From positions 1-28,200 of IMG/VR virus record IMGVR_UViG_3300009182_000251: 28,200 nucleotides of DNA; one strand, given 5' to 3'. Positions 2 through 17,911 of this stretch are shown in pieces; the stretch's first letter is position 1; each line of letters begins with the position of its first letter. This DNA comes from a virus. The notes under the pieces are model-generated. The model was not told the DNA's origin, searched no databases, and saw only the letters and a program-made list of their open reading frames with translations. A program made the position numbers and the translations under genes.

Positions 2-2635
2 GGAGACGCAGACGGTTGGATCAGCGATCTGGGTGTGGAATTTGATACCAGCACTTGGAACGTTAAGTCAGATGGTCTCATCTACACAGATCCACAGTTC
101 TTGGCACAGCTACACAAGTTCCTCATGGGATTGGGCGTGCCCAGAGACATAGTGAGCCAGATCAGCTACAGCGAACAGGGCATGCAGGAAGACACATACG
201 TTAGCTTTGATGCCAATGCCTTCGGTGACTACGTGGCTGATCAGTTCGTGATAGGCGATGCTAAAACCATGGATGATCGCAAGACCGAGATCATACGTGC
301 CATGCTGGTCAACATCAGGGACGGTAACCAGAACAGAGCAGCTGGCATATTCAACCAGCTGCGCCAGCTGGGAGCCAAATGGCCGGAGCTTGATGCCATA
401 GAAAAGAGCTTGCGTGCTGGCAAGAACCTCACAGAAAGCGCACTGGCCAGAGAGGCACTGACCAATGCCAAGCGCAGCCTGTGGAGCGAACTGCCCGGAG
501 GCAACTGGTGGACTGTGGGCCGTGTGATAGATAGGATGATCTATGCCACGGTGACCAAGGACGATATCAGAACAGTGCTAGAAGGATTCAAGCGAGACAT
601 ACTCACGCAGCAGAACCAGCTCACACAGGGCCAGGGCGCAGAAGTGCTGGCAGGTCTCACTAACCTGCGCAGGCTCAGCATGGCAGGCGTGAACTGGCCC
701 GAGATAGGTCAGATGCTCACACGGAACAAGCGCCACATCATGCGTGCTGCGCTGCAGGAGATCAAGCACTTTGGTTCTGAAGATCTCAGTGACGATGAGC
801 TACCCTCCATATACAAGCATCTCAAGCAGCTGAACGTGGCCTGGCCAGAGATGGCAGTGATAGCCGATGGCATTGATACCATACGACAGCTGGGAGAAGC
901 CGCTGGTCCCAAGATGATAGCCACAGGTGCCGGCAAGATCAAGAATCCTGCGCACAGCGACGATGTTAAGTACGAAGGCAGCCCCGATGCCTATGATTTT
1001 GGTCCGCAGAAGGCAAACTATGATGCGCTCAAGGCGCTGCTGGCACGCAACGGCAAGCGATTGACTTATCTAGCTGTGGAACGCAGCACCGAAGGACCAG
1101 ACACCTTGGTAGCCACCGGTCCGGGTGTGGTATGGTTCAAGAAGACACAGTGGGGCGGTGGTGGTAACTGGGTATGGATCAACGGCGTCAAGAGCAACTT
1201 ATCCACCGTGCTCAAGCTAAGCCCGGCGGCGCAAGATGCGTTGTTTACCGCCCCACAGAGCCAAGCGATCAAGGCTACCAAAGGCAAACCCTTGGCCTAT
1301 GTCAAGGCTTTGGTAGCCGACGGTGTCACAGGACGGCAGCTGCGCAGCGAGGTTGACAGCGTAGCCGACCAGATAGTGGGCGATCTTGCCAAGACTTTGA
1401 GCTACAATGCCGACAAGCTGTCGGTATATCGACGTTTTATCAGCAGATTAGAACATGATTCTGGGACCAAGCTTAGCAGCCTTGACCCGCAACTTGTGAT
1501 TGACAAGGCCATGCCCATGTTGATGCAGCACTTGATAGGCAATCTTAGATGGGACAGCAATCGCTTTGAGAATCTCTTGAAATCCTACAAGGATAACGGC
1601 ATCAAGATATGGCCTAATGATATCAAGGCCGAGATTCTCAAGCAGTGGAGCGAGATACAACAACAGCTGCACGACGTTGACAACATCATGGATGGCAGGA
1701 GCATGACAATTGGTCGCAGGTTGCGCGGCTTTGGCATCGATAGTCCAGAGATCGAAGAGAAGAATCTCCAGCAGCAGCTGCAGGACAACAAGGCCAAAAT
1801 CATCAAGAACCTACTGTCTAGATTACGTGACGGACATATCAGCCTGGTAAAGCCTAAGATAGATCGACTCAAGCAGTTTGGTGTAACCTGGCCGGAGCTA
1901 GATGTCATGCTCAAGAGCATCAATTCTCAGCTTAGCGAAGATTGGCACGATGTTGACACAGATGACTATGACGAAGTCTATGGTCGCGTAGGCAGCGCCT
2001 TGCAGGACATAGAAAATGGCTTGCGCACACACATGGAAGAGTGGCATGCTGAAATGGTGGTGAATGGCCTTGCTGACCTAGCATCGCTGTTGGACGATAC
2101 TGATTGGTTAGACGCTCCAACACCCAGCGAATATAGCTTGGATCTCGCTAAGCAAAAACCTCTGTTTGTCAAGGCGCTGCTGTTTGGCATGAAACATTCA
2201 GACCATGACAACGTTCAAGATGCCATACGCATGCTGGAAGACTACTGGCATGTGCGTTGGCCAGAACTGGACACCATCAACAAGAGCATGCGTGCTGGCA
2301 AGTTAAAAGAATCCGCACCAAGCCATGATGAAGAAGCCTATCGCTATGCTGAAGAGATGGCTGCTAATCTTCCAGAAGTCGCAGCTGATCCTGTGGATGC
2401 CATGCATGTGTTCCTACACGCAGCTGATCATCCCCAGGTCATAGGACCCTGGGCTGCAGAATATTTTGCGCCTCACAAGGATCTGTGGATACGCTGGCTT
2501 CTGGCACAGATGAAGGGTGATGAGTATGCCACAGACGAGATATATGAAGCAGTGAGCATGCTCAAGCGCATGCGCCTGCCTTGGCCAGAGCTTGACGTGA
2601 TCGTTCGCAGCATGGGAGCAGACTTCCGTGGCTAA
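2..2635 (+). CDS. Giant WPELD-repeat protein, 5'-truncated by window
   Basis: The reading frame is open to the left edge, so the GTG at 35 is probably not the start and the gene begins outside the window. About 877 residues are visible. Counting from position 35, W-P-E motifs lie near residues 116, 221, 270, 619, 742 and 850. Several are preceded by a basic helical stretch of the form K-x-x-I-x-R-x-L-L and followed by K/R-S-M/L, so the protein looks like a chain of helical repeats of roughly 105-120 residues. Residues about 308-415 form a different, Gly/Trp-rich segment (VVWFKKTQWGGGGNWVWING) that may be an inserted domain. No signal peptide or membrane segment is visible in the part seen. 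The next gene starts inside its last codons and shares the repeat, so the two are probably paralogous and co-expressed. I do not recognise a named family; a phage virion or injected internal protein is a guess. Confidence 0.85.
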   Translation, partial: GDADGWISDLGVEFDTSTWNVKSDGLIYTDPQFLAQLHKFLMGLGVPRDIVSQISYSEQGMQEDTYVSFDANAFGDYVADQFVIGDAKTMDDRKTEIIRAMLVNIRDGNQNRAAGIFNQLRQLGAKWPELDAIEKSLRAGKNLTESALAREALTNAKRSLWSELPGGNWWTVGRVIDRMIYATVTKDDIRTVLEGFKRDILTQQNQLTQGQGAEVLAGLTNLRRLSMAGVNWPEIGQMLTRNKRHIMRAALQEIKHFGSEDLSDDELPSIYKHLKQLNVAWPEMAVIADGIDTIRQLGEAAGPKMIATGAGKIKNPAHSDDVKYEGSPDAYDFGPQKANYDALKALLARNGKRLTYLAVERSTEGPDTLVATGPGVVWFKKTQWGGGGNWVWINGVKSNLSTVLKLSPAAQDALFTAPQSQAIKATKGKPLAYVKALVADGVTGRQLRSEVDSVADQIVGDLAKTLSYNADKLSVYRRFISRLEHDSGTKLSSLDPQLVIDKAMPMLMQHLIGNLRWDSNRFENLLKSYKDNGIKIWPNDIKAEILKQWSEIQQQLHDVDNIMDGRSMTIGRRLRGFGIDSPEIEEKNLQQQLQDNKAKIIKNLLSRLRDGHISLVKPKIDRLKQFGVTWPELDVMLKSINSQLSEDWHDVDTDDYDEVYGRVGSALQDIENGLRTHMEEWHAEMVVNGLADLASLLDDTDWLDAPTPSEYSLDLAKQKPLFVKALLFGMKHSDHDNVQDAIRMLEDYWHVRWPELDTINKSMRAGKLKESAPSHDEEAYRYAEEMAANLPEVAADPVDAMHVFLHAADHPQVIGPWAAEYFAPHKDLWIRWLLAQMKGDEYATDEIYEAVSMLKRMRLPWPELDVIVRSMGADFRG

Positions 2636-5600
2636 GGTGGAACAGATCATGGATGAGCTGCGTGCGGGCCTCAAAGCAGGTAACGTGCATGCCGTGAAGA
2701 GAGCCACTAACAGTATCCTCGCAATGGGTCTGGACCCTGACCTACAACTGCATGCCGAGCAGCCACTGATAGAGCGCACGCTGCAGATACTGATGAGGCG
2801 CGGCAAGGAATACCAGGACAGTGTCCACGGACCAAGCCAGCACTTCCGCACGGTGGCGCACATCATAGACACGTTGACGCCCAGAGATTGGCCAGGCATA
2901 GCCAAGATACTGGAAGATAACAAGCATGAGATCATCAGGGACCTGCTGCTGAGGATGCGCGAAGGTTGGACGGCCAGCGCACTGATAGCAGCCAAGGACC
3001 TGCAGCGCTGGGGCAGGCGTTGGCCTGAGCTAGCCACCATAGCACGCACCGCATTAGATGATGTTGACAGGGTAGACGAGAGCCGGGATGATTACACGCC
3101 CAGCACAGAAAACCTCTTGCGTTATTTGCGTCAGGATTTAGACAAGGGCGACCACGATGCTGCGCTGGAGATCATAGGCGAGCTGGCATGGCCCACGCAT
3201 CCCAGCATGGATCTCAGTGAGTTGCTCAACAGTCACAAGCGAGGTCTCATGCGAGCCATGCTAACTACTATGAGCAGCAATGACAGCGAAGGTGTGCAGT
3301 ACATCATGCCACAGTATCTGGGTGGATTTGCCAAGTTTGGCGTGCATTGGCCTGAGTTCGACACCATAGAACGCAGCGTGGCTGCCATGGGGCATGAACA
3401 GCGTGATGCGGTTGATGAGGATTATGCGCTGGGCGAACCTGCACCGCAGGAGATCAACGACTTGTTTGAGTTCCTAGAAAACAGTGACGGATTCAATGCA
3501 GTAGCATCGCTGTACCGCCTCGCTGATGCCGATCTGGATCCCACCTATGCTGAAGATATCGCACCATACAAGGATCTGATCATACGCGGCATGCTGCAGT
3601 GGGCCAATGAAGAACCAGAATGGGCACCAACTGTGCTCACAGCCATAGACACTCTGCGCGACATAGGCCTAGACTGGCCAGAGCTGGCTGCTGTCAGCAA
3701 GAGCGCACTCAGCGATTTCGATCAGCTCACAGAGACCAATCCCGTGTATGCCAAGCAGGATGCTGAACGTGCCGTGCGCGGCATATCATCAAACCTCGAG
3801 AAGATGCGCCGTGTAGGGCTGCAGTGGGAGGCATACTACCAGCTGATCGATGCGCTATATGGAGTGTTGGCCGTGAATCGCAGCTACGCAGACATGACCA
3901 CGCCTGTGCTGGAACACTACAAGACCGACATCCTGCGTACCTTGCTGTGGAGCATCAAGACATCAGTGGAGCAGGGCAGGCACGACATGTTCATGAACAG
4001 CATGTTTGATGCGTTTGATCGTGCTAGAGTCAACTGGCCAGAGATTGATGCTATCAAGCGCAGCATGCGAGCTCGCGCTGAACAGTCAGCTGGCATAGCA
4101 GAGTCAACCATGAATCCTCATCAGCTGCGCTATATCACACAGACGCTGGATAATCACACTCCGTGGAAGGCAGCTAATGCCATGATCCAGCAGGGACTGC
4201 GCTATGACAGCAATCCTGAGATCAAAGCGCTCTGGGATGCCAACAAGGATCGCACAATCATACACATGCTCAAGCTGATCAAAGCTGATCCAAACCACAC
4301 AGGCGTTCCGCTGATGATCAAGGACTTCAAGACCATTGGCCTACCTTGGTCAGAGATAGACAGTATAGCCCGCAGCATCAGTGTGGGCATAGCAGAAGCT
4401 TGGAGCAAGAAGTACAAGCGCAGCATCAACTGCAGCCATCCCAAGGGTTTCAGCCAGAAGGCACACTGTGCAGCACGCCGCAAGCGCAGAGCAGGTGGCA
4501 AGACCAAGAGCAAGAGCGTGGGTGAAGCCATCAATCCCATCAGCGATCGCGGTGCTATAGCCTACAGCCCCATACACAAGCCTCGCGAACCTAGGAAGGT
4601 AGAGCCAGCCAAGCTGGGTGTGCAGGTTGATGTGCGCAGAGAGCATCCGCGCGATCCAGATGAATATGTGTACAAGAAACCCAAGCCCAAGAAGACGTTC
4701 AGCCTGGATGACGAGCTAGACGAAGCCATACGCGGACAGCACCGCTGGATACAGCGTGTGGCAGACAACCTAGCCTGGGATTTTGAGCACAATCGCGATC
4801 TCGAGATCGGATATACCATTCAGAAGCTGAACCAGACTGATCCCAGCGAGGTCCAAGAGATATTCGAACCATTAGCCCAGAGCTATGCTGATTGGTTCCA
4901 GCGCATGGTCGATGCCAACAGCGTTGATTTTGGCCTTCGAGAGCTGGACAGGCTGCTGGGTTACATCAGGGAGGCCTATCCACAGATAATCGCAGCAGTG
5001 GAACACAACAAGACAGCTATCATGCGCTATCTGCTGACCTTGGTCAGGGAAGAACATCACGATTTAGTAAAGAGCCGCATTGCTCTGCTCAGAGACCTCG
5101 GAGCTGATTGGAAAGAGCTCAACATGATAACTCGCAGCCTGCTTGAGAACGAGGATCCTGACAAGCAGCAGCGCAGCAAGGCTGAAGCTCGCCAGACCAT
5201 CTTGGACATGTTCGCTCGCGACATGGCAAAGAACGGTGATCGTGGCATCTACTACGTGATGTATCACATGGACGACTGGGGATTCAAGCTGGCAGATTGG
5301 CCGGAACTGCTGCCTTTGATCGATGCTCACAAGCATCGGATAGTGAGCGAACTGCTCAAGACACACCGAGGCGACTATGGCAGGAATCGCGAAGGAGTGC
5401 GGCTGTCACTGGACAGAATGCGCAGGATAGGCCTTGATTGGCCTGAGTTGGATGTCATAAGAAAGAGCCTTGATGCCGGCGAGAGACTGAACGAGGATGG
5501 CGACTTTGAAGAGATCATGGAATTCTTAGCTGGACAAATGAGTGACATGTCAGCGTTCCTCGAGGAAGGCAACGACCTATGGTTGGTTGGTGTGCTGAGC

Positions 5601-6422
5601 GAGATATACACCATGTTGGAAAACGAGAATCTTCACCAACAGTATTGGCCAGAACCCCATGACTGGGATATTGATCTAGAAGCTAACAAGACCAATTTCG
5701 TCAAGGGCATACTGGAAGCCATCAAGCTGGGCGAAGTCGATGAGGCTGTGCCGGCTGTGCACATGCTCAAGGATTATTGGCATGTCAATTGGCCAGAGCT
5801 TGATGTCATACTCAAGAGTGCCAATGCTATCAGGGCACAGGAGATTGATGAGCTACGTGGCTATCGTGCTGATCCCGTGTATCGTGCTGCCAAGCGAGAG
5901 TTCAAACCTCACAAGATGAAGACTCACAGCGAGCGCGACACGGCCATGGAAAAGCTCACTGACTACCTGGAGACACAGGGGTTCAAGCACATCGGTCAGG
6001 GTAGCTACAGCGAGATCTATCTCAAGCCAGGCTATCCATGGATGTTCAAGCTGTGGAGCCACGATCCCGCTTACCTATGGTGGATCACCTGGGCAGCCAA
6101 GCATCAGGACAATCCCAACGTGCCACGAGTCAAGGGCCTACCTGTGAAGATAGCACCAGACACCTATGTGGTACGATTGGAAAAGCTGCGCGGCCGCAGC
6201 CGCTATGATCACAAGCAGCTAGCCGACATGCTAGACGGTATTGAAACGGTTGATGACATCAGCAAGGAAGATCTGCAGTGGATCCGCAGGGAATATCCAG
6301 GCATCTATGATGCGCTGCGAGTGATACAGCGTGCTGGTAGCGATTTCGTGGTTGACCTGCACAGCGACAACATAATGATGCGCGGGCAGATACCGGTATT
6401 GGCTGATCCAGTAGTGGGCTGA
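2628..6422 (+). CDS. Giant WPELD-repeat protein with C-terminal kinase-like domain
   Basis: A protein of 1264 residues. The GTG start overlaps the preceding stop by 8 bases and has GGGAG 9 bases upstream. Motifs of the WPEL/WSEI/WKEL type lie near residues 132, 241, 350, 470, 574, 828, 891, 938 and 1055. The early ones are spaced 104-120 residues apart, as in the upstream gene. Near residue 602 the repeats are interrupted by a Cys/His motif (CSHPKGFSQKAHC) and a very basic tract. Residues about 1100-1264 resemble a small protein-kinase-like fold: a Gly-rich loop (GQGSYSEIY), a Lys in FKLW, a catalytic-loop-like DLHSDNIMMRG and a DFG-position DPV. Such C-terminal domains occur in marine phage proteins by my recollection. 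The His-x-Asp-Asn loop suggests nucleotide binding, but activity is not shown. Its stop abuts the stop of the opposing gene with no spacer. Function unknown. Confidence 0.9.
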   Translation: MAKVEQIMDELRAGLKAGNVHAVKRATNSILAMGLDPDLQLHAEQPLIERTLQILMRRGKEYQDSVHGPSQHFRTVAHIIDTLTPRDWPGIAKILEDNKHEIIRDLLLRMREGWTASALIAAKDLQRWGRRWPELATIARTALDDVDRVDESRDDYTPSTENLLRYLRQDLDKGDHDAALEIIGELAWPTHPSMDLSELLNSHKRGLMRAMLTTMSSNDSEGVQYIMPQYLGGFAKFGVHWPEFDTIERSVAAMGHEQRDAVDEDYALGEPAPQEINDLFEFLENSDGFNAVASLYRLADADLDPTYAEDIAPYKDLIIRGMLQWANEEPEWAPTVLTAIDTLRDIGLDWPELAAVSKSALSDFDQLTETNPVYAKQDAERAVRGISSNLEKMRRVGLQWEAYYQLIDALYGVLAVNRSYADMTTPVLEHYKTDILRTLLWSIKTSVEQGRHDMFMNSMFDAFDRARVNWPEIDAIKRSMRARAEQSAGIAESTMNPHQLRYITQTLDNHTPWKAANAMIQQGLRYDSNPEIKALWDANKDRTIIHMLKLIKADPNHTGVPLMIKDFKTIGLPWSEIDSIARSISVGIAEAWSKKYKRSINCSHPKGFSQKAHCAARRKRRAGGKTKSKSVGEAINPISDRGAIAYSPIHKPREPRKVEPAKLGVQVDVRREHPRDPDEYVYKKPKPKKTFSLDDELDEAIRGQHRWIQRVADNLAWDFEHNRDLEIGYTIQKLNQTDPSEVQEIFEPLAQSYADWFQRMVDANSVDFGLRELDRLLGYIREAYPQIIAAVEHNKTAIMRYLLTLVREEHHDLVKSRIALLRDLGADWKELNMITRSLLENEDPDKQQRSKAEARQTILDMFARDMAKNGDRGIYYVMYHMDDWGFKLADWPELLPLIDAHKHRIVSELLKTHRGDYGRNREGVRLSLDRMRRIGLDWPELDVIRKSLDAGERLNEDGDFEEIMEFLAGQMSDMSAFLEEGNDLWLVGVLSEIYTMLENENLHQQYWPEPHDWDIDLEANKTNFVKGILEAIKLGEVDEAVPAVHMLKDYWHVNWPELDVILKSANAIRAQEIDELRGYRADPVYRAAKREFKPHKMKTHSERDTAMEKLTDYLETQGFKHIGQGSYSEIYLKPGYPWMFKLWSHDPAYLWWITWAAKHQDNPNVPRVKGLPVKIAPDTYVVRLEKLRGRSRYDHKQLADMLDGIETVDDISKEDLQWIRREYPGIYDALRVIQRAGSDFVVDLHSDNIMMRGQIPVLADPVVG
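4431..4535 (+). other. Cys/His plus basic insert within repeat protein
   Basis: About residues 602-636 of the giant kinase-tailed protein. C-x-H and H-C pairs bracket a KGFSQKA core, followed by a run rich in Lys and Arg (ARRKRRAGGKTKSKS). The arrangement could bind a metal ion and nucleic acid. I recall similar short motifs in other marine phage proteins but cannot name the family with certainty. It separates two blocks of WPELD repeats. Confidence 0.5.
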
Positions 6423-8555: not shown

Positions 8556-10592
8556 TCACTTGGTGTTGGTGCGGTATACGGTGTCCCAACCTTCGCCCGG
8601 TGGATTAGCAGCTAAGTCTGTGCAGCGTTCTATCCACATATCATAGTAGCCATCCATTTGCCCACCAAACTTGCCCTTGAGTTCTATGCAGGCCATGATA
8701 GCACCTTTGAACCTCTGCGCACGGTAATCTGCTATCATGTGCAGGTGTTTGATCTTAGCTTCCTCGTCTCGCACGGTCAACACCGTGTGTATGTTCACGC
8801 CTTCCCGCTTGCCCTTTACAGCGATGCAGTCCAGAGGCAGCGTGAAGAAATCCTGCTTGACGTGGTCGTTGGTGCGATCCCCTATGACCATAGCAACATG
8901 ATAAGGCTTAGACTGGCCTTCCAGACGGCTTGCCAAATTAACAGCATCACCCAGGCAAGTGTAGTCAAAGCGCTGCTCACTGCCCATATTACCAACAACG
9001 ACGACCCCGGTGTTAATGCCCAGGCCCATACCAAAAGGAGGAACGCCTTCCGCAGTGACTTCGGCATTGAACGCAGAAAGGCTATCCAACATCTCCAGGG
9101 CCGTTCTAACCGCGTTCCTCGCGTGGTCTGGATCATCCAACGGAGCATTCCAGAATGCCATCTGCGCATCGCCGATATACTTGTCCAGAGTACCCTCATT
9201 GTCCAATATCTTCCTCGTCATGGCCGTCATGTAGCGATTCATTATCCGGGTCAGCCCTTGGACGTCGCTGCCATAATGCTCGCTGATAGAAGTGAAGCCC
9301 CTGACATCTGTGAACATGATCGAAAGCTCACGTGATTCCCCTCCCAGCTTGAGCAGGTCTGGATTCTCCTGCAGCTTCTCTACCATCTTTGGGCTCAGGT
9401 ATGTGCCAAACTGCTTCTTGATCTGCTGCTTCTGTAGGAACTCGCTGACAAACTTCACCACGTAGGCATGCAGAGCGACCACAATGCTGCCTGCTGTAAT
9501 GGCAGTAGCGTCCCATAATAGTCTATGCTCACTATAACCCCAGCGGCTACCCATAATGCTAGCGAACACCACCACAACCATCGTTCCAATGCCCACATAG
9601 GTCCACCTCGCCATTGCTGTCAATATGATACCGGCTGTTGCCAGTGCCAAGAGTTCCCCACCATCTGACCAATCTGGGCGCTGTATGTTGACCTTGTTGA
9701 TCATGGTACCCAGCACAGCTGCTTGAACATCCTGTGGCCACACTGCTCCGATGGCAGTTGACACCGGATTGCCTATGCCTGCTGCGCTCACGCCAACGAT
9801 GACCACAGCACCATGTAGATCGTCGGGCAGCTTGGTGATGCTGTAGTGCTCACTGTGCTGGCTCCAATCAATCCATATGCGCCCGAGACTGTCAGTGGTC
9901 ACTGGACCAAACTTTGGTATGCGCATCTTGTCGATACCAAGCTCGCTCAGCTTGACCTGCACTGTGCTGTCCTTGGCCAGCACACGCAGCGTCTCCATGC
10001 CTAGGCTGGGATATATCTTGCCGTCCACAGAGATCACCAAAGGCACCCTGCGATTCACACCATCTATCTCTGGCAGGGTGTTCACTGTGCCCACGCCCCA
10101 GGCTGGCGCTTCCAGCTCTGGTATGTTGGCTATCAGTCCAGGATAGTGTATGATCCTATCACCAAACTGGCTGTTGATCACTGCGCTGCCAGGCTTCCTT
10201 GGGCTGTTCTTGGTCACAGCAGCAGGTATGTTGCTGAGGATCGTGGGATGATCTTTCAGTGTTTCTGACAGCTGAGCATCGCCGCCAAAGCGGTCAGACT
10301 CGGGCATGAGCACGTTCCATACCACCAGTCCTGCGCCATGGGCATAGATATCCTTGATGATGTCAGCATACACGGTGCGTGGGAAGGGCCACTGTCCATA
10401 CTTGTCCAACGCAGCTTCGTCTATGTTGACCACAGCTATGTTGTTTGTGTGCACAGGCTGGCCAGTGATCAGAGTGTCAAAGTATCGCAACCTCACACTC
10501 TCCACGAAGCTGGGATCAGCTGCACGCAGAGCTATCATGACCGCAAGTGTTATCAGCGCCGTCCACGGCGATAGCACAATCTTCTTGAGCAT
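8556..10592 (-). CDS. CHASE2-domain class III adenylate cyclase
   Basis: A 678-residue membrane cyclase predicted to make cAMP in response to a signal sensed outside the inner membrane. An N-terminal helix (about 10-27) is followed by a CHASE2 domain (about 30-310, with VVNIDEAALDKYGQWPFPR and the TVNTLPEIDGVNRRVPL region), membrane helices between about 312 and 382, the usual linker (FGTYLSPKMVEKL), and a class III cyclase domain (about 420-610). Catalytic positions look intact: metal Asp 429 (FTDVRGF) and 475 (IGDAQMAF), substrate Lys 471 and Thr 545, and Asn 552 and Arg 556 (VNLASRLEG). Lys/Thr favours ATP over GTP and fits class IIIb. A tail of about 70 residues follows. It is the last gene of the leftward curli block. 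Bacterial CHASE2 cyclases often sit beside FecR-domain genes, as one does here. It has no Shine-Dalgarno site; TAAATA lies four bases before ATG. The domain call is very secure. Confidence 0.96.
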   Translation of the reverse strand: MLKKIVLSPWTALITLAVMIALRAADPSFVESVRLRYFDTLITGQPVHTNNIAVVNIDEAALDKYGQWPFPRTVYADIIKDIYAHGAGLVVWNVLMPESDRFGGDAQLSETLKDHPTILSNIPAAVTKNSPRKPGSAVINSQFGDRIIHYPGLIANIPELEAPAWGVGTVNTLPEIDGVNRRVPLVISVDGKIYPSLGMETLRVLAKDSTVQVKLSELGIDKMRIPKFGPVTTDSLGRIWIDWSQHSEHYSITKLPDDLHGAVVIVGVSAAGIGNPVSTAIGAVWPQDVQAAVLGTMINKVNIQRPDWSDGGELLALATAGIILTAMARWTYVGIGTMVVVVFASIMGSRWGYSEHRLLWDATAITAGSIVVALHAYVVKFVSEFLQKQQIKKQFGTYLSPKMVEKLQENPDLLKLGGESRELSIMFTDVRGFTSISEHYGSDVQGLTRIMNRYMTAMTRKILDNEGTLDKYIGDAQMAFWNAPLDDPDHARNAVRTALEMLDSLSAFNAEVTAEGVPPFGMGLGINTGVVVVGNMGSEQRFDYTCLGDAVNLASRLEGQSKPYHVAMVIGDRTNDHVKQDFFTLPLDCIAVKGKREGVNIHTVLTVRDEEAKIKHLHMIADYRAQRFKGAIMACIELKGKFGGQMDGYYDMWIERCTDLAANPPGEGWDTVYRTNTK

Positions 10593-10609: not shown

Positions 10610-10732
10610 TCAGAGATCCAGTGCTTGGCATACAGCAGCCACGCAGATCAAAGCAAACATGGTACCGAGGAATATCGCAGCGTCTATGGGTAGCCTATAG
10701 CCATAGGCCCAGATGTCGTGCACATTATACAT
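10610..10732 (-). CDS. 40-residue membrane peptide
   Basis: A short gene beginning MYNVHDIWAYGYRLPIDA, with one hydrophobic helix (about residues 17-37) containing two Cys. The start is supported by AGGAG eight bases upstream, which overlaps the TAG stop of the preceding gene. It ends 17 bases before the cyclase start. It probably sits in the inner membrane and may be a small partner of the cyclase or of the secreted protein upstream. No homologue recognised. Confidence 0.7.
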   Translation of the reverse strand: MYNVHDIWAYGYRLPIDAAIFLGTMFALICVAAVCQALDL

Positions 10733-10743
10733 CGCGTTATCTC

Positions 10744-11145
10744 CTATTGAAGCAGACAGATAGCAGTGTCGTCGCTGAACACGTAGCGTATCTTGCTGAT
10801 ACCGCGATACCTACAGGTCAGCTGATCAGTCTTGACGCTGCCAGACCACAGGATGCGATCCTGCCACGGGGATCTGTGCCAGGCACCATCATTCCAGCTC
10901 CAGCCAGTGGTTCGCCTCTCGACACGCGGTAAGTCCATGACCCAGCGCTCCATGTTGCTATCGATGGTTATCTCGGTGTGATTGGCTGTGGTTTCGACCA
11001 AGCATTGGCGAAATCTCACGTAGGCAAAGCCGTTTGAATCGCGCTCGCTCACATCGCAGGCCACGCTGCGGCTGGCCGTGGCTACCGGGGTGGCCAGCAC
11101 CAGCAGTGCGGCAGTCAACCATGCTAGCCTATCGACCGACGACAC
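10744..11145 (-). CDS. Secreted small Cys protein (133 aa)
   Basis: The GTG start at 11145 overlaps the upstream gene by 17 bases; an in-frame TTG nine codons later is an alternative. Either gives a signal peptide with a hydrophobic core (LTAALLVLATPVATA). The mature part of about 105 residues has four Cys (VAC, RQC, LTC and AIC), enough for two disulfides, many beta-prone stretches and several Trp. It is probably a small periplasmic beta protein. Its place in the curli/FecR/cyclase block suggests it belongs to the same envelope system. I recognise no family. Confidence 0.75.
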   Translation of the reverse strand: MSSVDRLAWLTAALLVLATPVATASRSVACDVSERDSNGFAYVRFRQCLVETTANHTEITIDSNMERWVMDLPRVERRTTGWSWNDGAWHRSPWQDRILWSGSVKTDQLTCRYRGISKIRYVFSDDTAICLLQ

Positions 11146-11644
11146 TCTTCAATCCGGGCACTATCTGTGCTAGGCTGTGATAGGTCTGGTAATCGCTGCC
11201 GCTGATGATCACGCCAAACACAAACAGGCCCAGATAGATCATGGCTGGCAGTCCAAGGAACACTATCACGCAGGCCCAAAATATCTGTGATCTTTCTTCA
11301 GATCTTTCCCTGGCCAAGCGCTCTGCGCGTTTCCTAGCCTGTTCTGCGTCTATCTTTGACTGCTTGAATGCTGCTCTCTGGGCAGGAGTCATGCGAGCCA
11401 GCATATCTGCCTCTTGTTCAGCAGCTATCTCACGCATGGCCTGCTCGCGCAACATGTTGTTGTTGCGGATGATCTGGTTGTTTATCTCTGTGATCTTGTT
11501 CTTGTTTATGACTTTTTGAGTGTTGGCAGCCTTCTGTGCCGGCGAGTTCTTGATGACGTCCACGATCCCAAACACCGAATCGGTAAGGACCTCGCCCCAG
11601 GCTTGCCCAAGCTTCTGGGCCTTCTTGGGATCCATGTCAATCAT
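11129..11644 (-). CDS. Coiled-coil protein with C-terminal membrane helix (171 aa)
   Basis: The ATG at 11644 has a perfect AGGAGG six bases upstream. Residues about 1-120 are a long charged helix rich in Gln, Ala, Arg and Glu (probable coiled coil) without a signal peptide. A strongly hydrophobic region of about 25-30 residues follows (FWACVIVFLGLPAMIYLGLF), then a short tail. The likely topology is tail-anchored or hairpin, with the coiled coil in the cytoplasm. It is the first gene after an AT-rich gap that may hold an internal promoter of the curli/cyclase block. Function unknown. Confidence 0.82.
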   Translation of the reverse strand: MIDMDPKKAQKLGQAWGEVLTDSVFGIVDVIKNSPAQKAANTQKVINKNKITEINNQIIRNNNMLREQAMREIAAEQEADMLARMTPAQRAAFKQSKIDAEQARKRAERLARERSEERSQIFWACVIVFLGLPAMIYLGLFVFGVIISGSDYQTYHSLAQIVPGLKSVVGR

Positions 11645-11713: not shown

Positions 11714-12280
11714 TTAATGTTTGACATAGCTGTAGCCCTTGCAGCTACCAGTGTAGCAGCTGATGCTCATTTTGGCAGCGTCGGGGGTTGTGAGATTGTC
11801 CTGCACCACCGTGGCTCCGATGTTGCTGCCACTGAGCTGCAGCACAAAGCTCTTGTCTGCTCCAACACTGCCGCGCTGCATGATGCTGGCGGTGTTGTTG
11901 CTGTTTGACACTGGATCGCTCATGACCACGCTGGCTCTGTGATTGCCGTCGCCGGTCTGCAGTATGGTTATGTCGTTGCCGCTGTTAATGCTGTTTGAAG
12001 CCACCATGCCATCAGCGCCAACCGTGGCCCTGTGATCTCCACGGTCATGCTGCAGTATGGTGATGTTGTTGCTATCGCCGTGAGTGACGATCATAGCCTG
12101 TTGGTTACCAGAATCCACCTGCTTGACATAAGCAGTGTTGTTGTCACCTATCTGCTCTATGTAAACGAACTTGGAATTTGCCGCAGGCATGGCCACAGCT
12201 GGGCCAGTGCCGGCAGCACCCACTGTCTGTGCTGCTGCAGTTGATCCAAACAGCAAAAATGCTATCAGTGTGCGTATCAT
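11714..12280 (-). CDS. Exported curlin-repeat protein B
   Basis: A 188-residue protein with an N-terminal signal peptide, cleavage likely after AAA at residue 17. From about residue 40 it carries curlin-like units with the spaced Gln, Gly, Asn and Gln pattern: VYIEQIGDNNTAYVKQV, then NITILQHDRGDHRA and DITILQTGDGNHRA. The repeats are looser than in E. coli CsgA/CsgB. The C-terminal 15 residues end in CYTGSCKGYSYVKH, a Cys pair and basic tail unusual for a curlin; this could be an anchor or cap, as CsgB's C-terminus anchors E. coli fibres. Its ATG shares four bases (ATGA) with the FecR gene stop, so the two are translationally coupled. Substrate of the CsgG pore by inference. Confidence 0.82.
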   Translation of the reverse strand: MIRTLIAFLLFGSTAAAQTVGAAGTGPAVAMPAANSKFVYIEQIGDNNTAYVKQVDSGNQQAMIVTHGDSNNITILQHDRGDHRATVGADGMVASNSINSGNDITILQTGDGNHRASVVMSDPVSNSNNTASIMQRGSVGADKSFVLQLSGSNIGATVVQDNLTTPDAAKMSISCYTGSCKGYSYVKH

Positions 12281-13407
12281 CTGCTCTGTGATATCCTTAT
12301 GATGCTGTTGCCTCCGCCGTTGACGCGCTGGTTCAGTGTGTACTGGTCCTGCGACAGCGACAGCAGCGAGTTCTGATCTTTGTCCAAGGTCACTTCAGCA
12401 TAGCTTGATGTACCATTGCGGTAGAGCACCAGCTGGTTACCCATGATGATGTAGTTTAGACCGCTGGCCTTCTTGTATCCTGGCAGCAGCCCTTCGTTAG
12501 CAGCTATCTTGAGCATGTTTTCCAACAGCTCTGCGTTCAGCAGGTCCAGCATGTTGGCCAAGAACTGCTGACTGAGATAGTCTATGTCTAAGCGAGATCC
12601 AGCTGCTGTCAGTAGGTTGATATTGAGATCATCAAACTTCAACAGATCAGCATCAAGATAGTTGATATCCAGCGCGGTTTTCATGAGATGCTCGCTGCTG
12701 TGAGCAGCAGCTTCCCTGGGCGGTGTCAGTATCAACATGTTGTTGATCTGGCTGGGATCCAGCTTGAGTATCACGCTCTTGGCTGGATTGGCTTCTCTGC
12801 TCTTGGTCACCGTGGCTTGGAATGGTTGATCAAGCACTTCCTCACCCGCATCAGTGGTCACTATGATCTTGCCTGTCTTGCAGTCTCGCTCCACGTTCTT
12901 GAAACCCACTGGGCAACTTGGTAATAGGATGATGAGGCTGCGTCCCAGCTCATCGACGGTCATGCTAAAGTCCGTGCCGCGCACGCCTATGGTTGCCGTT
13001 GGTGTCTCGATCTTCACGCTGGCAGGGTTGTCCTTGGCTATCTGGCCGCTGGCATAGCGTGCAGTACCCAGCGCCATCTTGATGGCCAGCTTGCCAGTGT
13101 CCTTACCGGACGCAGGATCATAGACAAACTCATCTATGACCATCTTGCTCTGTTCGTTGATCTCTACCTTGGTATCATCCTCGAAGGTGATGCCAACACG
13201 AGCTCTAGCAGTGACCACGGCGTCATTCATCTCCACACGGGTGTTTACGGCACTGGGTATGCTGTTCTTGTCGCGCTGGATCTCAGCCAGTCCGGTCTGT
13301 TCTGTGACAGAACCTATGGCTGCGGTCGCATCAGTTGCCGCTGATAACAGATATAGTGTTATTGCTGCCAACGCTAGTGATGTTAACCTTGCTGTCCACT
13401 GTGCCAC
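12277..13407 (-). CDS. Exported FecR-domain protein
   Basis: A 376-residue protein. A hydrophobic signal sequence ending near DATAA (residue 30) is followed by a FecR domain (about 33-150) finishing in the hallmark TPTATIGVRGTDF. C165 and C176 could form a disulfide. The C-terminal half is rich in Leu, Asn and Asp (DINYLDADLLKFDDLNINLL) and ends in a beta-prone tail. It has no sigma-factor-binding or transmembrane anti-sigma part, so it is a periplasmic or surface FecR protein rather than a classic iron-dicitrate regulator. The GTG start at 13407 lies inside the curlin A gene. No in-frame Met follows until residue 60, so an overlap of the signal peptide with curlin A seems unavoidable; an internal TTG near 13374 is another candidate. 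FecR proteins often sit near CHASE2 cyclases, as here. Confidence 0.9.
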   Translation of the reverse strand: MAQWTARLTSLALAAITLYLLSAATDATAAIGSVTEQTGLAEIQRDKNSIPSAVNTRVEMNDAVVTARARVGITFEDDTKVEINEQSKMVIDEFVYDPASGKDTGKLAIKMALGTARYASGQIAKDNPASVKIETPTATIGVRGTDFSMTVDELGRSLIILLPSCPVGFKNVERDCKTGKIIVTTDAGEEVLDQPFQATVTKSREANPAKSVILKLDPSQINNMLILTPPREAAAHSSEHLMKTALDINYLDADLLKFDDLNINLLTAAGSRLDIDYLSQQFLANMLDLLNAELLENMLKIAANEGLLPGYKKASGLNYIIMGNQLVLYRNGTSSYAEVTLDKDQNSLLSLSQDQYTLNQRVNGGGNSIIRISQSR

Positions 13408-14026
13408 TCTGAGCCACTCCCACTGTGTTGCTGCTACCTGTCAGTGCCACTGTAGCTTCGAAGCCATTTAATCCAGCTGGACCGTGCTGCGTCACAGTCA
13501 CGGCATTGTCGCTGCCAGTGGCTGTGATGGTGCTGCGTGCGCCCAAGAGGTTGCTGGTGATGCTGTCCGTGTGCAGGGTGTTGCGGTCGCCAGTGACTTC
13601 AGTGCTGTGCGTGCTCTTGCTGCCAGCATTGATACCAATGTCGTTGTTGCTGCCAGTGATGTTGGCCGTGATGTTGCTGTCAGCACAGGCACTGGCCTTG
13701 TTCACGCTGCCGCTGCCGCAGTCGATGTTCACTGTGTTGGTATTGCCCGTGACAGTGCTCTGCACCGTGGTGCCAGCACCCTGAACGTTCAGTGCTGCGG
13801 TGTTCACAGCTCCTATCTGTGACACGGTTATTGATTGATTGTTGCCATGCAGTATAGCTGCTGCGGCGCTGTCGCCTACTGCGTTGTCACCACCTGATTG
13901 CGTGACGCTGATGTTGCTGTTGTTGCCAACTTGGTCTATGTAGACCTGGTTACCAGCTGCTAGTGCTCCACTTGCTGCTAGAACCGACATCGCTGTTCCC
14001 ATCAACAGCGACTTCAAACGTAGCAT
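13331..14026 (-). CDS. Exported curlin-repeat protein A
   Basis: A 231-residue protein. It has a signal peptide with cleavage after ALA (residue 23), then the unit QVYIDQVGNNSNISVTQSGG, a close match to the curlin repeat. More degenerate Asn/Ser/Thr/Gly-rich units follow (SITVSQIG, AVTVTQHGPAG, TVGVAQSG, TISVISGN). The middle (about 85-160) is rich in T-G-N-x-N turns and has two Cys. It is expected to be exported through CsgG and to form an amyloid-like beta solenoid. The ATG has AGGAG and GGGAG just upstream, a strong ribosome site suggesting high expression. It follows csgG by 37 bases and overlaps the FecR gene at its 3' end. Whether it is the major or nucleating subunit cannot be told. 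Confidence 0.88.
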   Translation of the reverse strand: MLRLKSLLMGTAMSVLAASGALAAGNQVYIDQVGNNSNISVTQSGGDNAVGDSAAAAILHGNNQSITVSQIGAVNTAALNVQGAGTTVQSTVTGNTNTVNIDCGSGSVNKASACADSNITANITGSNNDIGINAGSKSTHSTEVTGDRNTLHTDSITSNLLGARSTITATGSDNAVTVTQHGPAGLNGFEATVALTGSSNTVGVAQSGTVDSKVNITSVGSNNTISVISGN

Positions 14027-14063: not shown

Positions 14064-14927
14064 TCATTTCGTGTCTGGGCCCTTGGCTGGCAATGCCTTG
14101 GCCGGTGTTGGTTTAGCAGCTGATGCGGGTCTCGGTGCGTATTCCCAGAGCTGCTTCTTGATCCCTTGCTGTATCATGTCTACCACAGCTGCTTCAGTGG
14201 CCAAGCGCACGGAGTAGGTAGTTGGTTCGTTCTGTGCCGAACCAGCTTCCATCTGCACGCTCATGGTACCTGCGTCCACGAAGGTGAACACGTTGGCATC
14301 GCTGCCTTGGCTGTATATGGTCTTGGTGGCTCCTGCGCTGACCAGGACTTCACCGGTCTGCACGCTGATCAAACGTATGACCACGGTGACCACGTCAACC
14401 CTGTAGTTGATGTCTGCGCCTATGCCCAGCAGCTTGGCACCCATTCCACCACTGATGGTGTCAGCGTCATAGCCAACGATGCCACCTTCCAGCATCACGC
14501 CTGCTACCAGCATGGGACTCAGCTGCTTGGCATCCTTGCCCTCATAGGTCTCACGTTGGTTGCGTATCAGCTGTCGTTCCTTGATCAGATCATCCAGTCC
14601 CACACGTTCTACCACCTGGAACCACTTGCCGTTACCCGCGTCCTGCAGCGCCTTGATGAGGAACACTTCTGCGCCCTGTGTCACGGCACTGCTGAGCACT
14701 GAGAACTTGTCATTGGGCTTGCGCTGTCCGGTCTTGTCGTTGAAGCTATACACAGCTATGGTTATGGGAGGGCCGTTAGGACCCTGCATGCCGTAGAGGC
14801 TGCTGACGTTGCTGCGCTTTAGGATCTGCGGTGTGGCACTGACCACTGACGGATCGATGGCCTTGTCACTCATGCAGCCGCTCAGCAGCGTCAATCCTGC
14901 TGCTGCTATCATCTTGCCTATCTTCAT
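14064..14927 (-). CDS. csgG: CsgG-type outer-membrane curli secretion lipoprotein
   Basis: A 287-residue protein. The signal peptide ends in a lipobox LSGC, with the acylated Cys at residue 18. The body follows E. coli CsgG closely in order: VYSFNDKTGQRKP, VERVGLDDLIKERQLIR, EGGIVGYDADTISGGMGAKLLGIGAD (quoted here in two parts: EGGIVGYDAD and TISGGMGAKLLGIGAD), then TGEVL, SNEP-like QNEPTTYSVR and a terminal LWEY. CsgG forms a nonameric outer-membrane channel exporting unfolded curlins. The segment matching the pore-constriction loop lacks the E. coli Tyr-Pro-Ala-Ser-Asn order and reads NDKFSVLSS, so channel gating may differ. A tail of about 20 residues rich in Pro, Ala and Lys follows the family end. 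Its ATG overlaps the csgF stop by one base. Confidence 0.95.
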   Translation of the reverse strand: MKIGKMIAAAGLTLLSGCMSDKAIDPSVVSATPQILKRSNVSSLYGMQGPNGPPITIAVYSFNDKTGQRKPNDKFSVLSSAVTQGAEVFLIKALQDAGNGKWFQVVERVGLDDLIKERQLIRNQRETYEGKDAKQLSPMLVAGVMLEGGIVGYDADTISGGMGAKLLGIGADINYRVDVVTVVIRLISVQTGEVLVSAGATKTIYSQGSDANVFTFVDAGTMSVQMEAGSAQNEPTTYSVRLATEAAVVDMIQQGIKKQLWEYAPRPASAAKPTPAKALPAKGPDTK

Positions 14928-15379
14928 CAGAACTTGAAACTCCCCATGGGTACAGTGATATCAGTCTTGTTACCAGTCTCATCTATCACTGTGAGCGATA
15001 TGGTACCCGCAACCGTGTCCTTGATCCAGCTGATGGTGCTGCCTTGGAAAGCCATGGTACCGGATGTGCTGCCATCGCTGAACATGGCATTGCTGAGCTG
15101 CAAGCTCAGCTGTGCGTAGATGCGAGATTCTAGATTGTTCATGAACTTGCTGAGATTGGTGTTCTGTGCCGCAGCTTTCGCAGCGTCAGCTTCGGCTTTC
15201 TTCTGTGCTTCTTGGGCCTGCCTGCGGCTGAATTCCAAGTTTTCTATGGTCATAGCTTGGCTGCTCCAAGCAGCTGGGTCGTCACCAAACGCAGGATTCT
15301 TGAAACCATAGGTTATCTGTCCAGCCAATGCGCTGGATGACAACAGCGTGAAAACCAGAGCAAACAAGCGTGTTTTCAT
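14927..15379 (-). CDS. csgF: CsgF-type curli assembly protein
   Basis: A 150-residue protein. I chose the ATG at 15379, with GGGGGA about 8 bases upstream and a clean signal peptide (cleavage ALA|G at 19/20); an upstream in-frame ATG at 15406 lies inside the promoter octamer. The mature N-terminus GQITYGFKNPAFG matches the CsgF peptide that inserts into the CsgG pore. An Ala/Lys/Gln-rich helix (about 50-75) and a beta-rich C-terminus (TISLTVIDETGNKTDITVP) follow, as in the family. In E. coli CsgF couples secretion to nucleation at the surface. It is first in the block and its stop overlaps the csgG start. No csgE or csgD is seen in the window. Confidence 0.94.
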   Translation of the reverse strand: MKTRLFALVFTLLSSSALAGQITYGFKNPAFGDDPAAWSSQAMTIENLEFSRRQAQEAQKKAEADAAKAAAQNTNLSKFMNNLESRIYAQLSLQLSNAMFSDGSTSGTMAFQGSTISWIKDTVAGTISLTVIDETGNKTDITVPMGSFKF

Positions 15380-15405
15380 GGTAATTCCCCCAAAGAACGC
15401 GCTCA

Positions 15406-15413
15406 TATTTATA
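15406..15413 (-). promoter_or_regulatory. T4-late-type promoter TATAAATA of the curli block
   Basis: A perfect TATAAATA on the minus strand, 26 bases before the csgF ATG. In T4 this octamer, read by a phage sigma-like factor, is the whole late promoter and starts RNA a few bases downstream. That would give csgF a leader of about 20 bases including its ribosome site. Similar octamers at 7091 and 17881 support a shared late class. Confidence 0.68.
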
Positions 15414-15447: not shown

Positions 15448-16008
15448 TCATCCTATCTCTGCCATGAATCGTCTGACTGCTGCTACCGTGTCATCCATGA
15501 GCATGATCTCAGCATGGTTGGCATCCAGCTCTATGGTCTTTCCTGCAGCCCAGCTCCTCTGGCTCTTGAGCGTGACCACGCCATCATTGGGTTCGTACAT
15601 GTAGGGATTAAAACCCACGGTGCTCAGCAGATGCTGCACTGGTTGAGCATATGTGGTCCGGTGCAGCCGCTGCATGAATGTGCTGCGATGTGCCACTTCA
15701 TTGATGAATCCGCTGCGAGTGAGATAGGCCTGCAGGGCATTCACGCTTAGTCCGTCCAAGGGCGTGGCTATGGTGGTGATGCTGATCACGTTGGGATTGT
15801 CAGCCAGTGCCAGTGCGATCAACCCACCCATGCTGTGTCCTATCACATGGCTGGGTCGATCTATCACTGCTCGAGCACAGATGTCATCTACTCCGTTGAC
15901 ATCATTGTGATAGTCTAGGAAATGCCAGTCATGCTCATTCAATCTTGAACGCAGATAGTTGAATATGACCGGCGTGCTGAAAGCACCGTGTATAGCGAAT
16001 ATGTCCAT
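15448..16008 (-). CDS. Alpha/beta hydrolase, lipase/esterase-like (186 aa)
   Basis: A 186-residue single-domain hydrolase. IHG near residues 6-8 can supply the oxyanion hole, GHSMGG places the nucleophile Ser at 59, and the likely acid and base are Asp 142 (PNDGVV) and His 165 (NHAEIM). A full catalytic triad is therefore present. There is no signal peptide, so the substrate is cytoplasmic, or the enzyme reaches lipid after lysis. It begins seven bases after the polymerase stop, without a Shine-Dalgarno site; TGTAAATA lies four bases before ATG and overlaps that stop. The substrate cannot be read from sequence; acyl esters or phospholipids are guesses. Confidence 0.88.
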   Translation of the reverse strand: MDIFAIHGAFSTPVIFNYLRSRLNEHDWHFLDYHNDVNGVDDICARAVIDRPSHVIGHSMGGLIALALADNPNVISITTIATPLDGLSVNALQAYLTRSGFINEVAHRSTFMQRLHRTTYAQPVQHLLSTVGFNPYMYEPNDGVVTLKSQRSWAAGKTIELDANHAEIMLMDDTVAAVRRFMAEIG

Positions 16009-16020
16009 CAGCTATTTACA
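16006..16020 (-). promoter_or_regulatory. TAAATA-N4-ATG start element of the hydrolase gene
   Basis: TGTAAATA contains the TAA stop of the polymerase gene and ends four bases before the hydrolase ATG. There is no Shine-Dalgarno site. It is the third case of this geometry in the window. Confidence 0.35.
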
Positions 16021-17779
16021 GGCGCTTGCAGCTCCATTTGGTTACTCTGATGGTGCGATTGTTGTCTCTGATGTCGATCTCACCCACGCCTTCCACCATG
16101 TCAAACCTGCTCAGAGGCACACCACAGGGGAAGATCAGCTCGTGGAATTCTCGCCTATCTGTGCCCAGAGTGCAGAAGGTGATGTAGTCCTTCTTGCCCC
16201 GGACCCAGCCGCGGCAATACATGCGATGCGCAGCTACCAAACCAGAAAACGTGATGGTCCTGCCCAGTTCCGTGCTATAGCAGCCGGGCATGAACTCGTC
16301 GTGAGTCCAGAAGCCTCGTTTTCTCATCTGATCAGCATGGCTGTCAAATATGGGAACCTGCCAGTCTGCGTTGCGCAAGGTGTTGCCATCCACTCGCCAT
16401 GGTCGTTTGTTGCCTTCGATTCGCCAGCCTGCGGCCTTGGCCTGCTCCATGTGCACCCAGGGCCTGTACATGCTGTTGTTGTTTTCCAGCGTGCTCAGCC
16501 AGAACGCCTGTGGGTTGTGCACCTTCTCATAGGCCAAGCCCCAGATCAGGTTGGCCAAGTTGATGGCGTGTGCTTTACACAGACCAAAGCCGCCCATGTT
16601 GCCGAACAATTCCATGATTAGTTCCTTGCGAGGGCTTGAACCAATCCTCTGCAGGAAGTCCAAGCACAGTTCTTCGTTGCCCTTGATGAAGCCTCGGCGA
16701 TACATGTCAGCTGTGTAGGCATCGCAGCCCAGTTCTTCCATGATGAGGTTGATGGCATCTTCGTCGAAGATCAGACCATTCTCATACTTGAGATCACCAT
16801 AGGGCGCATCATTGCTCATGAGATCTCTGAAGAACACGCCCTTGGTGCGACCAGTCATGGCCGCAGGACGTATCAGCGCCGTGGCTATGGTTAGGTCACG
16901 CTTGTTCTTGACCTTGAGCGCTCGCAGGGTCCTTCGCATCACAGGACTTTCGCCCTGGCACACGCCCAGCGTGTCACCACGTGACAGCAGCTCTGCTGTG
17001 GCCTCATCCTCGTCTGGATAGTCCATGGGATGGCGACCGCTGATGTCAATGAGCTGTGCCAAGCCACGATTGCTGAGCACGTCTATCTTGAGGAATGCTA
17101 GGTCCTCGCACTCATTCTTGTCCAAGAGGATTTGGTTGTCCTGCCGTATCAGGCTGGCAGGCGGTGCGCGATCAAACACCACTATGCCTCCCGGATGCTT
17201 GCTGATGCAGCGCTTCTTGCCTATGAGCTTGGCAGTGAGCTTGCGCCATTCCTCCTGCTGGTGCTTGGGAACCAGCTTGGCGATGTCCTGGCTACCGGGT
17301 ATCTTGCCCTTGTGGCCAGTGATGCGCTTGAGGCTTTCCTTCTGTGCCGTGCGTTCTCGGAATCGCACGTAGTTGCTGAGGCGTGCGCTCTTGCCTGGCC
17401 ACTTCTTGTAGATGCGCTCCATGACTTCCTTGTGATAGTAGTAGGGAAAGTCTATGTCCACGTCTGGTAGATCGTCTCTGAATGGATTGAGGAATCGTGC
17501 CAAGGGTATGCGCTCTTTGACAGGATCCACGTCAGTGATTCCCAGCAGATAACAGACTAGACTGCTGCCTGCGCTGCCTCTGGTTATGTGTGGTATGTCT
17601 CGGGTAAGTTCAAGGACGTCTAGCACTCTGATGAAGTGCTTGGTGAAGTTCTGCTCGCTTATTATCTCAAGCTCTTCTGCTAATCTCTTGTCGTAAGCCT
17701 CATCCTCGGGTATGTCTCTTACGAATCTCTTGCTTAGTTCTATCCAGTTAGTGCGTTGTATGTTCACTGTGGTCGTCAT
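16016..17779 (-). CDS. PHP-less DnaE-type (family C) DNA polymerase
   Basis: A 587-residue replicative-type polymerase, about half the length of bacterial DnaE. The ATG at 17779 has GAGG eight bases upstream. Conserved landmarks: TRGSAGSSLVCYLLGITDVD (residues 67-86), RFLNPFRDDLPDVDIDF with catalytic Asp 106 and 108, HPGGIVVFD (about 195-203), FLKIDVLSNRGLAQL with the third catalytic Asp 233, and GGFGLCKAHAINLANLIWGL in the fingers region. A C-terminal OB-fold-like segment (SGLVAAHRMYCRGW onward) ends the protein. The N-terminal PHP domain (about 280 residues in E. coli) is missing, and I see no clear beta-clamp motif or tau-binding domain. It is a catalytically plausible minimal family C enzyme, probably a phage replicase or specialised polymerase. 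It is co-transcribed with the hydrolase. Confidence 0.94.
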   Translation of the reverse strand: MTTTVNIQRTNWIELSKRFVRDIPEDEAYDKRLAEELEIISEQNFTKHFIRVLDVLELTRDIPHITRGSAGSSLVCYLLGITDVDPVKERIPLARFLNPFRDDLPDVDIDFPYYYHKEVMERIYKKWPGKSARLSNYVRFRERTAQKESLKRITGHKGKIPGSQDIAKLVPKHQQEEWRKLTAKLIGKKRCISKHPGGIVVFDRAPPASLIRQDNQILLDKNECEDLAFLKIDVLSNRGLAQLIDISGRHPMDYPDEDEATAELLSRGDTLGVCQGESPVMRRTLRALKVKNKRDLTIATALIRPAAMTGRTKGVFFRDLMSNDAPYGDLKYENGLIFDEDAINLIMEELGCDAYTADMYRRGFIKGNEELCLDFLQRIGSSPRKELIMELFGNMGGFGLCKAHAINLANLIWGLAYEKVHNPQAFWLSTLENNNSMYRPWVHMEQAKAAGWRIEGNKRPWRVDGNTLRNADWQVPIFDSHADQMRKRGFWTHDEFMPGCYSTELGRTITFSGLVAAHRMYCRGWVRGKKDYITFCTLGTDRREFHELIFPCGVPLSRFDMVEGVGEIDIRDNNRTIRVTKWSCKRL

Positions 17780-17911
17780 GTTTATGTGCCTCTTTTGTGC
17801 CAAGTGTGAATGATGCCGCCAATAAGGGAGCATGCGATACTTATCAGCTGCCCTCAGCAGGTGACTGAGAAAAATCATTCCATAAATACAGCTCACAGCA
17901 CGAGGACCGCA
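17780..17911. promoter_or_regulatory. Divergent intergenic region between polymerase and fibre genes
   Basis: A 132-base gap that must carry both promoters. The rightward late-type octamer is at 17881-17888. For the leftward polymerase gene I see GAGG eight bases before ATG but no convincing sigma70 pair or octamer. A small CTCAG/CTGAG hairpin followed by AAAA lies near 17853-17874. Confidence 0.5.
17881..17888 (+). promoter_or_regulatory. Late-type promoter octamer CATAAATA
   Basis: Seven of eight matches to TATAAATA, 23 bases before the GTG start of the first collagen-like fibre gene. The spacing is nearly the same as for the octamer before csgF. Confidence 0.58.

Follow-up and report, generated by a model that had tools for sequence, protein, structure and literature searches.

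The cyclase gene at positions 8556–10592 of the window, by which we mean the whole 28,200-nucleotide stretch of IMG/VR viral DNA that was analysed, forms the distal end of a phage curli (type VIII secretion) module, a context that was missed in the earlier sequence-only reading of this DNA. Judged from sequence comparison, its product is almost certainly an intact adenylate cyclase that belongs to this module. The curli context changes the reading of the protein: instead of manipulating cAMP on its own, it would serve a phage curli cassette as its signalling arm.

The module lies entirely on the minus strand in the order csgF–csgG–curlin–FecR–curlin–(small ORFs)–cyclase. It starts with the genes for the curli assembly factor CsgF (14927–15406; Pfam CsgF, 2.5e-17) and the outer-membrane secretion pore CsgG (14064–14927; Pfam CsgG, 3.4e-48), the lipobox cysteine of which, Cys18, is invariant among 31 aligned viral homologues. 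These are followed by a first CsgA/B-like curlin (13331–14026; Pfam Curlin_rpt, 7e-7), a secreted FecR-domain protein of 376 amino acids (12277–13407; Pfam FecR, 2.4e-10; PHROG 37870) and a second CsgA/B-like curlin (11714–12280; Pfam Curlin_rpt, 1.6e-8, with weak NCBIfam CsgB/CsgA matches below the cut-off). The next open reading frame encodes a 171-amino-acid protein with a C-terminal hydrophobic stretch (11129–11644), for which no Pfam or PHROG match was found and a BLAST match was obtained only within the window. Two small frames of 40 and 133 amino acids, annotated as ORFs only, lie between the cyclase and the curli genes (10610–11145); the 133-amino-acid frame has no PHROG match. No Pfam match to csgE, csgC or csgD was found among the proteins scanned, which included the small ORFs in part and came from a window that is itself a fragment.

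The sequence-only reading had placed an intact cyclase at 8556–10592 and named no strand; the open frame, with an ATG start and 678 codons for amino acids, is on the minus strand, and the same interval read on the plus strand contains many stops. The assignment as a CHASE2 class III adenylate cyclase is based on Pfam, PHROG 35576 (4e-233) and the predicted model. The CHASE2 sensor domain (PF05226, E = 6.9e-38) spans residues 15–323 (9624–10550, minus strand) and includes the first and part of the second membrane helix, and the catalytic domain, delimited by PF00211 (Guanylate_cyc, E = 3.5e-20), the alignment with CyaC (1wc1) and conservation, spans residues 421–597 (8802–9332, minus strand). 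In the AlphaFold model, with a mean pLDDT of 88.5, a helix at residues 9–25 is followed by CHASE2, by helices at 309–327, 331–356 and 363–395, by the catalytic domain and by a helical tail to residue 676, such that the sensor is located between predicted membrane helices. The matches listed for the model in a fold search cover mainly the cyclase part, and for the catalytic domain include 3r5g (Z = 27.8) and 1wc1 (Z = 26.7). The domains, residues and predicted architecture thus agree with the earlier view of a full-length, apparently intact sensory cyclase on a phage contig.

The six catalytic residues named earlier, Asp429, Lys471, Asp475, Thr545, Asn552 and Arg556, were each found at the position claimed, and in an alignment with class III cyclases they pair with the metal Asp, Lys/Thr and Asn/Arg residues of Spirulina CyaC (1wc1). 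The suggestion of class IIIb is borne out by the Lys471/Thr545 pair, which is the same as that in the class IIIb CyaC. Cya2 (2w01), a guanylate cyclase that is among the closest solved cyclases by sequence, has a glutamate at the site of Lys471, and this difference supports ATP over GTP as the substrate. The two metal Asp residues are present in 83/83 phage and 51/51 bacterial sequences. Four of the six catalytic residues (Asp429, Lys471, Asp475 and Arg556) are invariant in all 83 phage cyclases, and likewise in 85/85 when the sequences from a Rhodobacteraceae metagenome bin are included. Position 545 of the 83 phage cyclases is Thr in 68, Asp in 12 and Ser in three (Thr/Ser in 71/83), and position 552 is Asn in 71 and Ser in 12; with the bin sequences (n = 85), position 545 is Thr in 68, Ser in three and Asp in 14. 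Asp545 and Ser552, replacing Thr and Asn, always occur together (14/85, including phage Melnitz) and never singly, and the branch that carries them requires two changes at position 552 and three at position 545 on the tree. The serine in place of the transition-state asparagine in these 14 of 85 sequences could weaken catalysis in that branch.

Viral homologues, the search for which had been proposed in the sequence-only reading, proved to be numerous, with relatives encoded in at least 592 IMG/VR stretches. Within 10-kb flanks of 82 other viral cyclase loci (L002–L083), FecR was found at 70, csgG at 68 and csgF at 66, although contig ends cut many of these flanks short. Four loci on longer contigs apparently lack csgG; three of these (L056, L072 and L080) have csgG elsewhere on the contig and the fourth (L083) is near a contig end. 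In the converse scan from csgG, confined to the 38 viral loci with at least 9 kb of downstream sequence, FecR, csgF and a curlin were present at 38/38 and the cyclase at 37/38, and the contig of the 38th locus (L250) also holds cyclase locus L056. The counts of this converse scan rest on the best-matching loci and describe the family, not every viral csgG. At about 15 loci (nine in the cyclase scan and six in the csgG scan) the cyclase and the curli genes are on different strands and yet adjoin each other, which argues for a functional and not merely transcriptional tie. At L059 csgF–csgG are on one strand and curlin–FecR–curlin–cyclase on the other, a division that separates precisely the pore genes from the others.

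The median pairwise dN/dS was 0.12 for the cyclase, 0.11 for FecR, 0.10 for curlin, 0.09 for csgG and 0.15 for csgF, and on this sequence-based measure the cyclase is under purifying selection; given this value and the hundreds of homologues, the gene is not a chance frame. Part of the family also encodes a stand-alone protein of 103–138 amino acids, homologous to the C-terminal tail of the cyclase (window residues ~562–672), directly upstream of csgF. This tail paralogue was found at 19 loci in all (among them L008, L009, L010, L011, L014, L015, L016, L040, L041/L188, L058, L059, L067, L069 and L184), where it and the cyclase mark the two ends of the module; the paralogue has no PHROG match and is absent from the window.

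Focusing on the origin of the module, homologues of the cyclase at E < 1e-30 were found in 204 of 385 alphaproteobacterial genomes, typically with about 40% identity. In the tree, the 85 phage-type cyclases form one clade (support 1.0), separated from 51 alphaproteobacterial cyclases by a branch of 0.91 substitutions per site. The cyclase is thus not one bacterium's own copy; the placement inside a single bacterial genome's copy, which the earlier reading had regarded as refuting, was not observed. A strict scan of the genome collection gave only two matches, both on Rhodobacteraceae metagenome-bin contigs with the whole module, and both grouped with the phages. The several phage-type curli-module contigs in this bin (L084, L085, L260 and L261) probably represent viral contamination. 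Among the bacterial CHASE2 cyclases, a FecR-domain gene was found nearby at 14 of 40 loci, whereas the density of FecR matches in 34 of these genomes (124 in 142.6 Mb) would predict about 0.6 in the ~0.66 Mb examined, and all 14 FecR neighbours were also recovered by the Pfam model. Nine of these 14 pairs adjoin within about 120 bp or overlap, usually with FecR directly upstream on the same strand; the gaps are approximate, as open frames were taken from stop to stop. At the five bacterial curli loci (L255–L259), where csgF, csgG and curlins are present, FecR and the cyclase were found in 0/5. Because FecR and the cyclase often pair in bacteria while the curli operons examined lack both, the phage module is most simply read as joining a curli export cassette to a FecR/CHASE2-cyclase sensing cassette, which are separate in bacteria.

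This two-cassette origin also makes FecR better read as the periplasmic partner of the cyclase than as an iron regulator. FecR was the only domain matched in 42/42 phage homologues, and no anti-sigma domain was found in these 42 at E values up to 1. The N-terminal helix of the phage protein (residues 2–24) looks like a signal peptide, and the closest fold is that of the periplasmic signalling domain of PupR. With a periplasmic-type domain only, a signal-peptide-like helix and no anti-sigma domain, the protein is not a regulator of the FecIR type. We consider it reasonably probable that FecR is the periplasmic partner of the cyclase, although FecR neighbours only about one third of the bacterial cyclases sampled, which speaks against this view. 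A hidden curlin repeat at the C-terminus of FecR was ruled out (hhalign probability 0.6%), and a match to AraC_N, below the Pfam cut-off in the window protein and present in only 5/42 homologues, was ignored.

The membrane-bound class III adenylate cyclase may well be the signalling arm of the phage curli secretion module, a proposal for and against which we regard the case as evenly balanced. During infection, the phage would build the CsgG/CsgF pore and export curlins; the periplasmic FecR protein would inform the CHASE2 domain about the condition of the envelope or of curli export, and the dimeric cytoplasmic cyclase domains would then turn ATP into cAMP, which would work via the host's own cAMP receptors and adjust host physiology or infection timing. 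No cNMP-binding protein (PF00027), that is, no phage cAMP receptor, was found in ten related phage records, so that a direct effect on host cAMP signalling, as envisaged earlier, would depend on a host receptor. CRP-like sites show no excess in the window (18 found, 22 expected). The Melnitz study saw no cell clumping (PMC9004378), which was counted against the curli-signalling reading. The coupling of curli export to cAMP is conceivable, if somewhat doubtful. Tentatively, phages may have fused a curli exporter and a FecR/CHASE2-cyclase sensor into one device that monitors itself, a second messenger reporting on curli export while infection proceeds; the tail paralogue may have the cyclase or its partner as its target.

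A cyclase that simply boosts cAMP, reprogramming host metabolism or delaying lysis and sharing no more than an expression unit with the curli genes, would be compatible with the intact catalytic site, and its occasional position on the opposite strand indicates that co-transcription is not required. Such a booster would often be expected to occur without curli, however, which is almost never the case in the sampled viral loci, and a soluble domain would suffice for it, whereas the full sensory CHASE2 domain is retained under the same constraint; we therefore regard this explanation as unlikely. It is considerably less probable that the cyclase rides along as a passenger or serves as a scaffold without catalytic function, retained since a bacterial cluster was captured. 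The loss of the transition-state Asn in one branch of the family would fit, but the metal Asp, Lys and Arg residues are invariant in 85/85 phage sequences, dN/dS is about 0.12 and the bacterial curli operons examined, being without a cyclase, offered no ride. The matches of PADLOC PycC models to the cyclase domain (best 6.6e-26) would be expected of a Pycsar-like defence or superinfection-exclusion cyclase producing cCMP or cUMP. These matches are limited to the shared cyclase domain, however, PADLOC matched 0/4 of the neighbours scanned, no cNMP-binding protein was found in the ten records of related phages and the Lys/Thr pair is of the adenylate cyclase type, which leaves this reading highly improbable. 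With PycC matches of up to 6.6e-26, there is a risk that phage curli cyclases are wrongly labelled Pycsar by automated annotation of defence systems.

A further alternative concerns the contig rather than the enzyme, namely that a bacterial fragment was filed as a virus by mistake. The earlier description of a phage-like region holds in so far as the DNA is an IMG/VR virus contig with tail-fibre genes; no match to the gp23 capsid or Terminase_6N was found in the 28.2-kb contig. This, together with the two relatives within a Rhodobacteraceae metagenome bin, is what a bacterial origin would predict. On the other side, the contig also carries the tail-fibre genes, the cultured phages Melnitz and HTVC008M show identical gene order, gp23 capsid and Terminase_6N are present in several large related contigs (149–344 kb), the phage clade is single and distinct from the bacterial cyclases, and the bin holds further csgF–csgG–curlin contigs and is probably phage-contaminated, such that a bacterial fragment is extremely improbable. 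The tail-fibre proteins encoded by the contig are collagen-like. A DNA polymerase III α (DnaE-type) fragment (16016–18025, minus strand) has matches to the NTPase and finger domains only and none to PHP, and its listed GTG start overlaps a plus-strand tail-fibre frame, so that translation probably begins at a site within the frame. A small α/β-hydrolase (lipase-like) is encoded directly upstream of csgF (15448–16008, minus strand). Two very large proteins of recurring 'WPELD' helical repeats are encoded on the plus strand (2–2635 and 2628–6422), the second with a weakly protein-kinase-like C-terminus (phrog_15752, 3e-4). The GC content of the window is about 54%, compared with 33–46% in related cyclase loci; megablast found no relatives of the window at the nucleotide level among phage genomes, and no Rfam RNA, riboswitches included, was found in the window.

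Phage curli modules have puzzled researchers since 2020, with a lysis pore, nutrient uptake and sibling capture among the ideas put forward. As the cyclase occurs in practically all sampled modules, any account would have to include a sensor of the envelope that, to judge by its sequence, makes cAMP. With the FecR–cyclase pairing in bacteria, this becomes a proposal open to testing, namely that the phage monitors its own curli export, and the cultured carriers Melnitz and HTVC008M make it amenable to experiment.

Among known systems, csgF and csgG were reported in pelagimyophages by Zaragoza-Solas and colleagues (PMC7029224), and a pelagiphage type VIII secretion module that includes FecR and adenylate cyclase was described in mSystems in 2022 (PMC9599517). 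The latter report stresses both proteins as foreign to bacterial curli operons, treats FecR as a ferric citrate regulator and, in the text considered here, leaves CHASE2 unmentioned. The pelagiphage module resembles that of the window in its order (csgF, csgG, curlin, FecR, second curlin, adenylate cyclase) and in its alphaproteobacterial affinity; it lacks csgE, to which no match was found among the window proteins scanned either. It differs in belonging to marine SAR11 podophages and myophages and in having a histidine kinase upstream, whereas the window has ~54% GC, three additional small ORFs and, upstream, DnaE and the lipase-like gene. Methylophilales phage Melnitz and Pelagibacter phage HTVC008M, like the window, carry a complete module ending in a CHASE2-type cyclase, annotated in both as adenylate/guanylate cyclase and 40% and 37% identical to that of the window, respectively; the Melnitz enzyme has Asp545/Ser552, compared with Thr545/Asn552 in the window. 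Of the module, the Melnitz paper (PMC9004378) takes up csgF and csgG alone, leaving the cyclase unmentioned, and it calls csgA/B absent, whereas the Melnitz record annotates two curlin-repeat proteins; a riboswitch or other Rfam RNA was also reported for this phage (PMC9004378).

Beyond phages, the Sinorhizobium meliloti CHASE2 cyclases CyaD1, CyaD2 and CyaK relay signals from NsrA, a protein of the outer membrane, to Clr (PMC13001267); these membrane enzymes report an envelope event by cAMP, as proposed here, in a bacterial system with a dedicated CRP-type receptor, Clr, and are likened to the window by description. A Burkholderia biofilm operon encodes a LysM-FecR protein and a CHASE2 histidine kinase (PMC5192318); like the window it places the gene for a secreted FecR protein beside a CHASE2 sensor, here linked to biofilm, but it is bacterial, has a kinase output and lacks curli. 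The class IIIb cyclases CyaC (1wc1) and CyaB (3r5g) share the catalytic fold of the window cyclase, and CyaC its Lys/Thr and Asn/Arg signature, although both have other sensor domains and no CHASE2. In conclusion, the phage curli–cyclase set is already known (PMC9599517) and the window adds a phage carrier of higher GC content; new here are the findings that FecR and the cyclase pair up in bacteria, that the linkage is near-obligate at the loci sampled, that the phage enzymes form a clade of their own, that Asp545 and Ser552 co-vary in one branch and that some members of the family encode a free-standing paralogue of the cyclase tail upstream of csgF.
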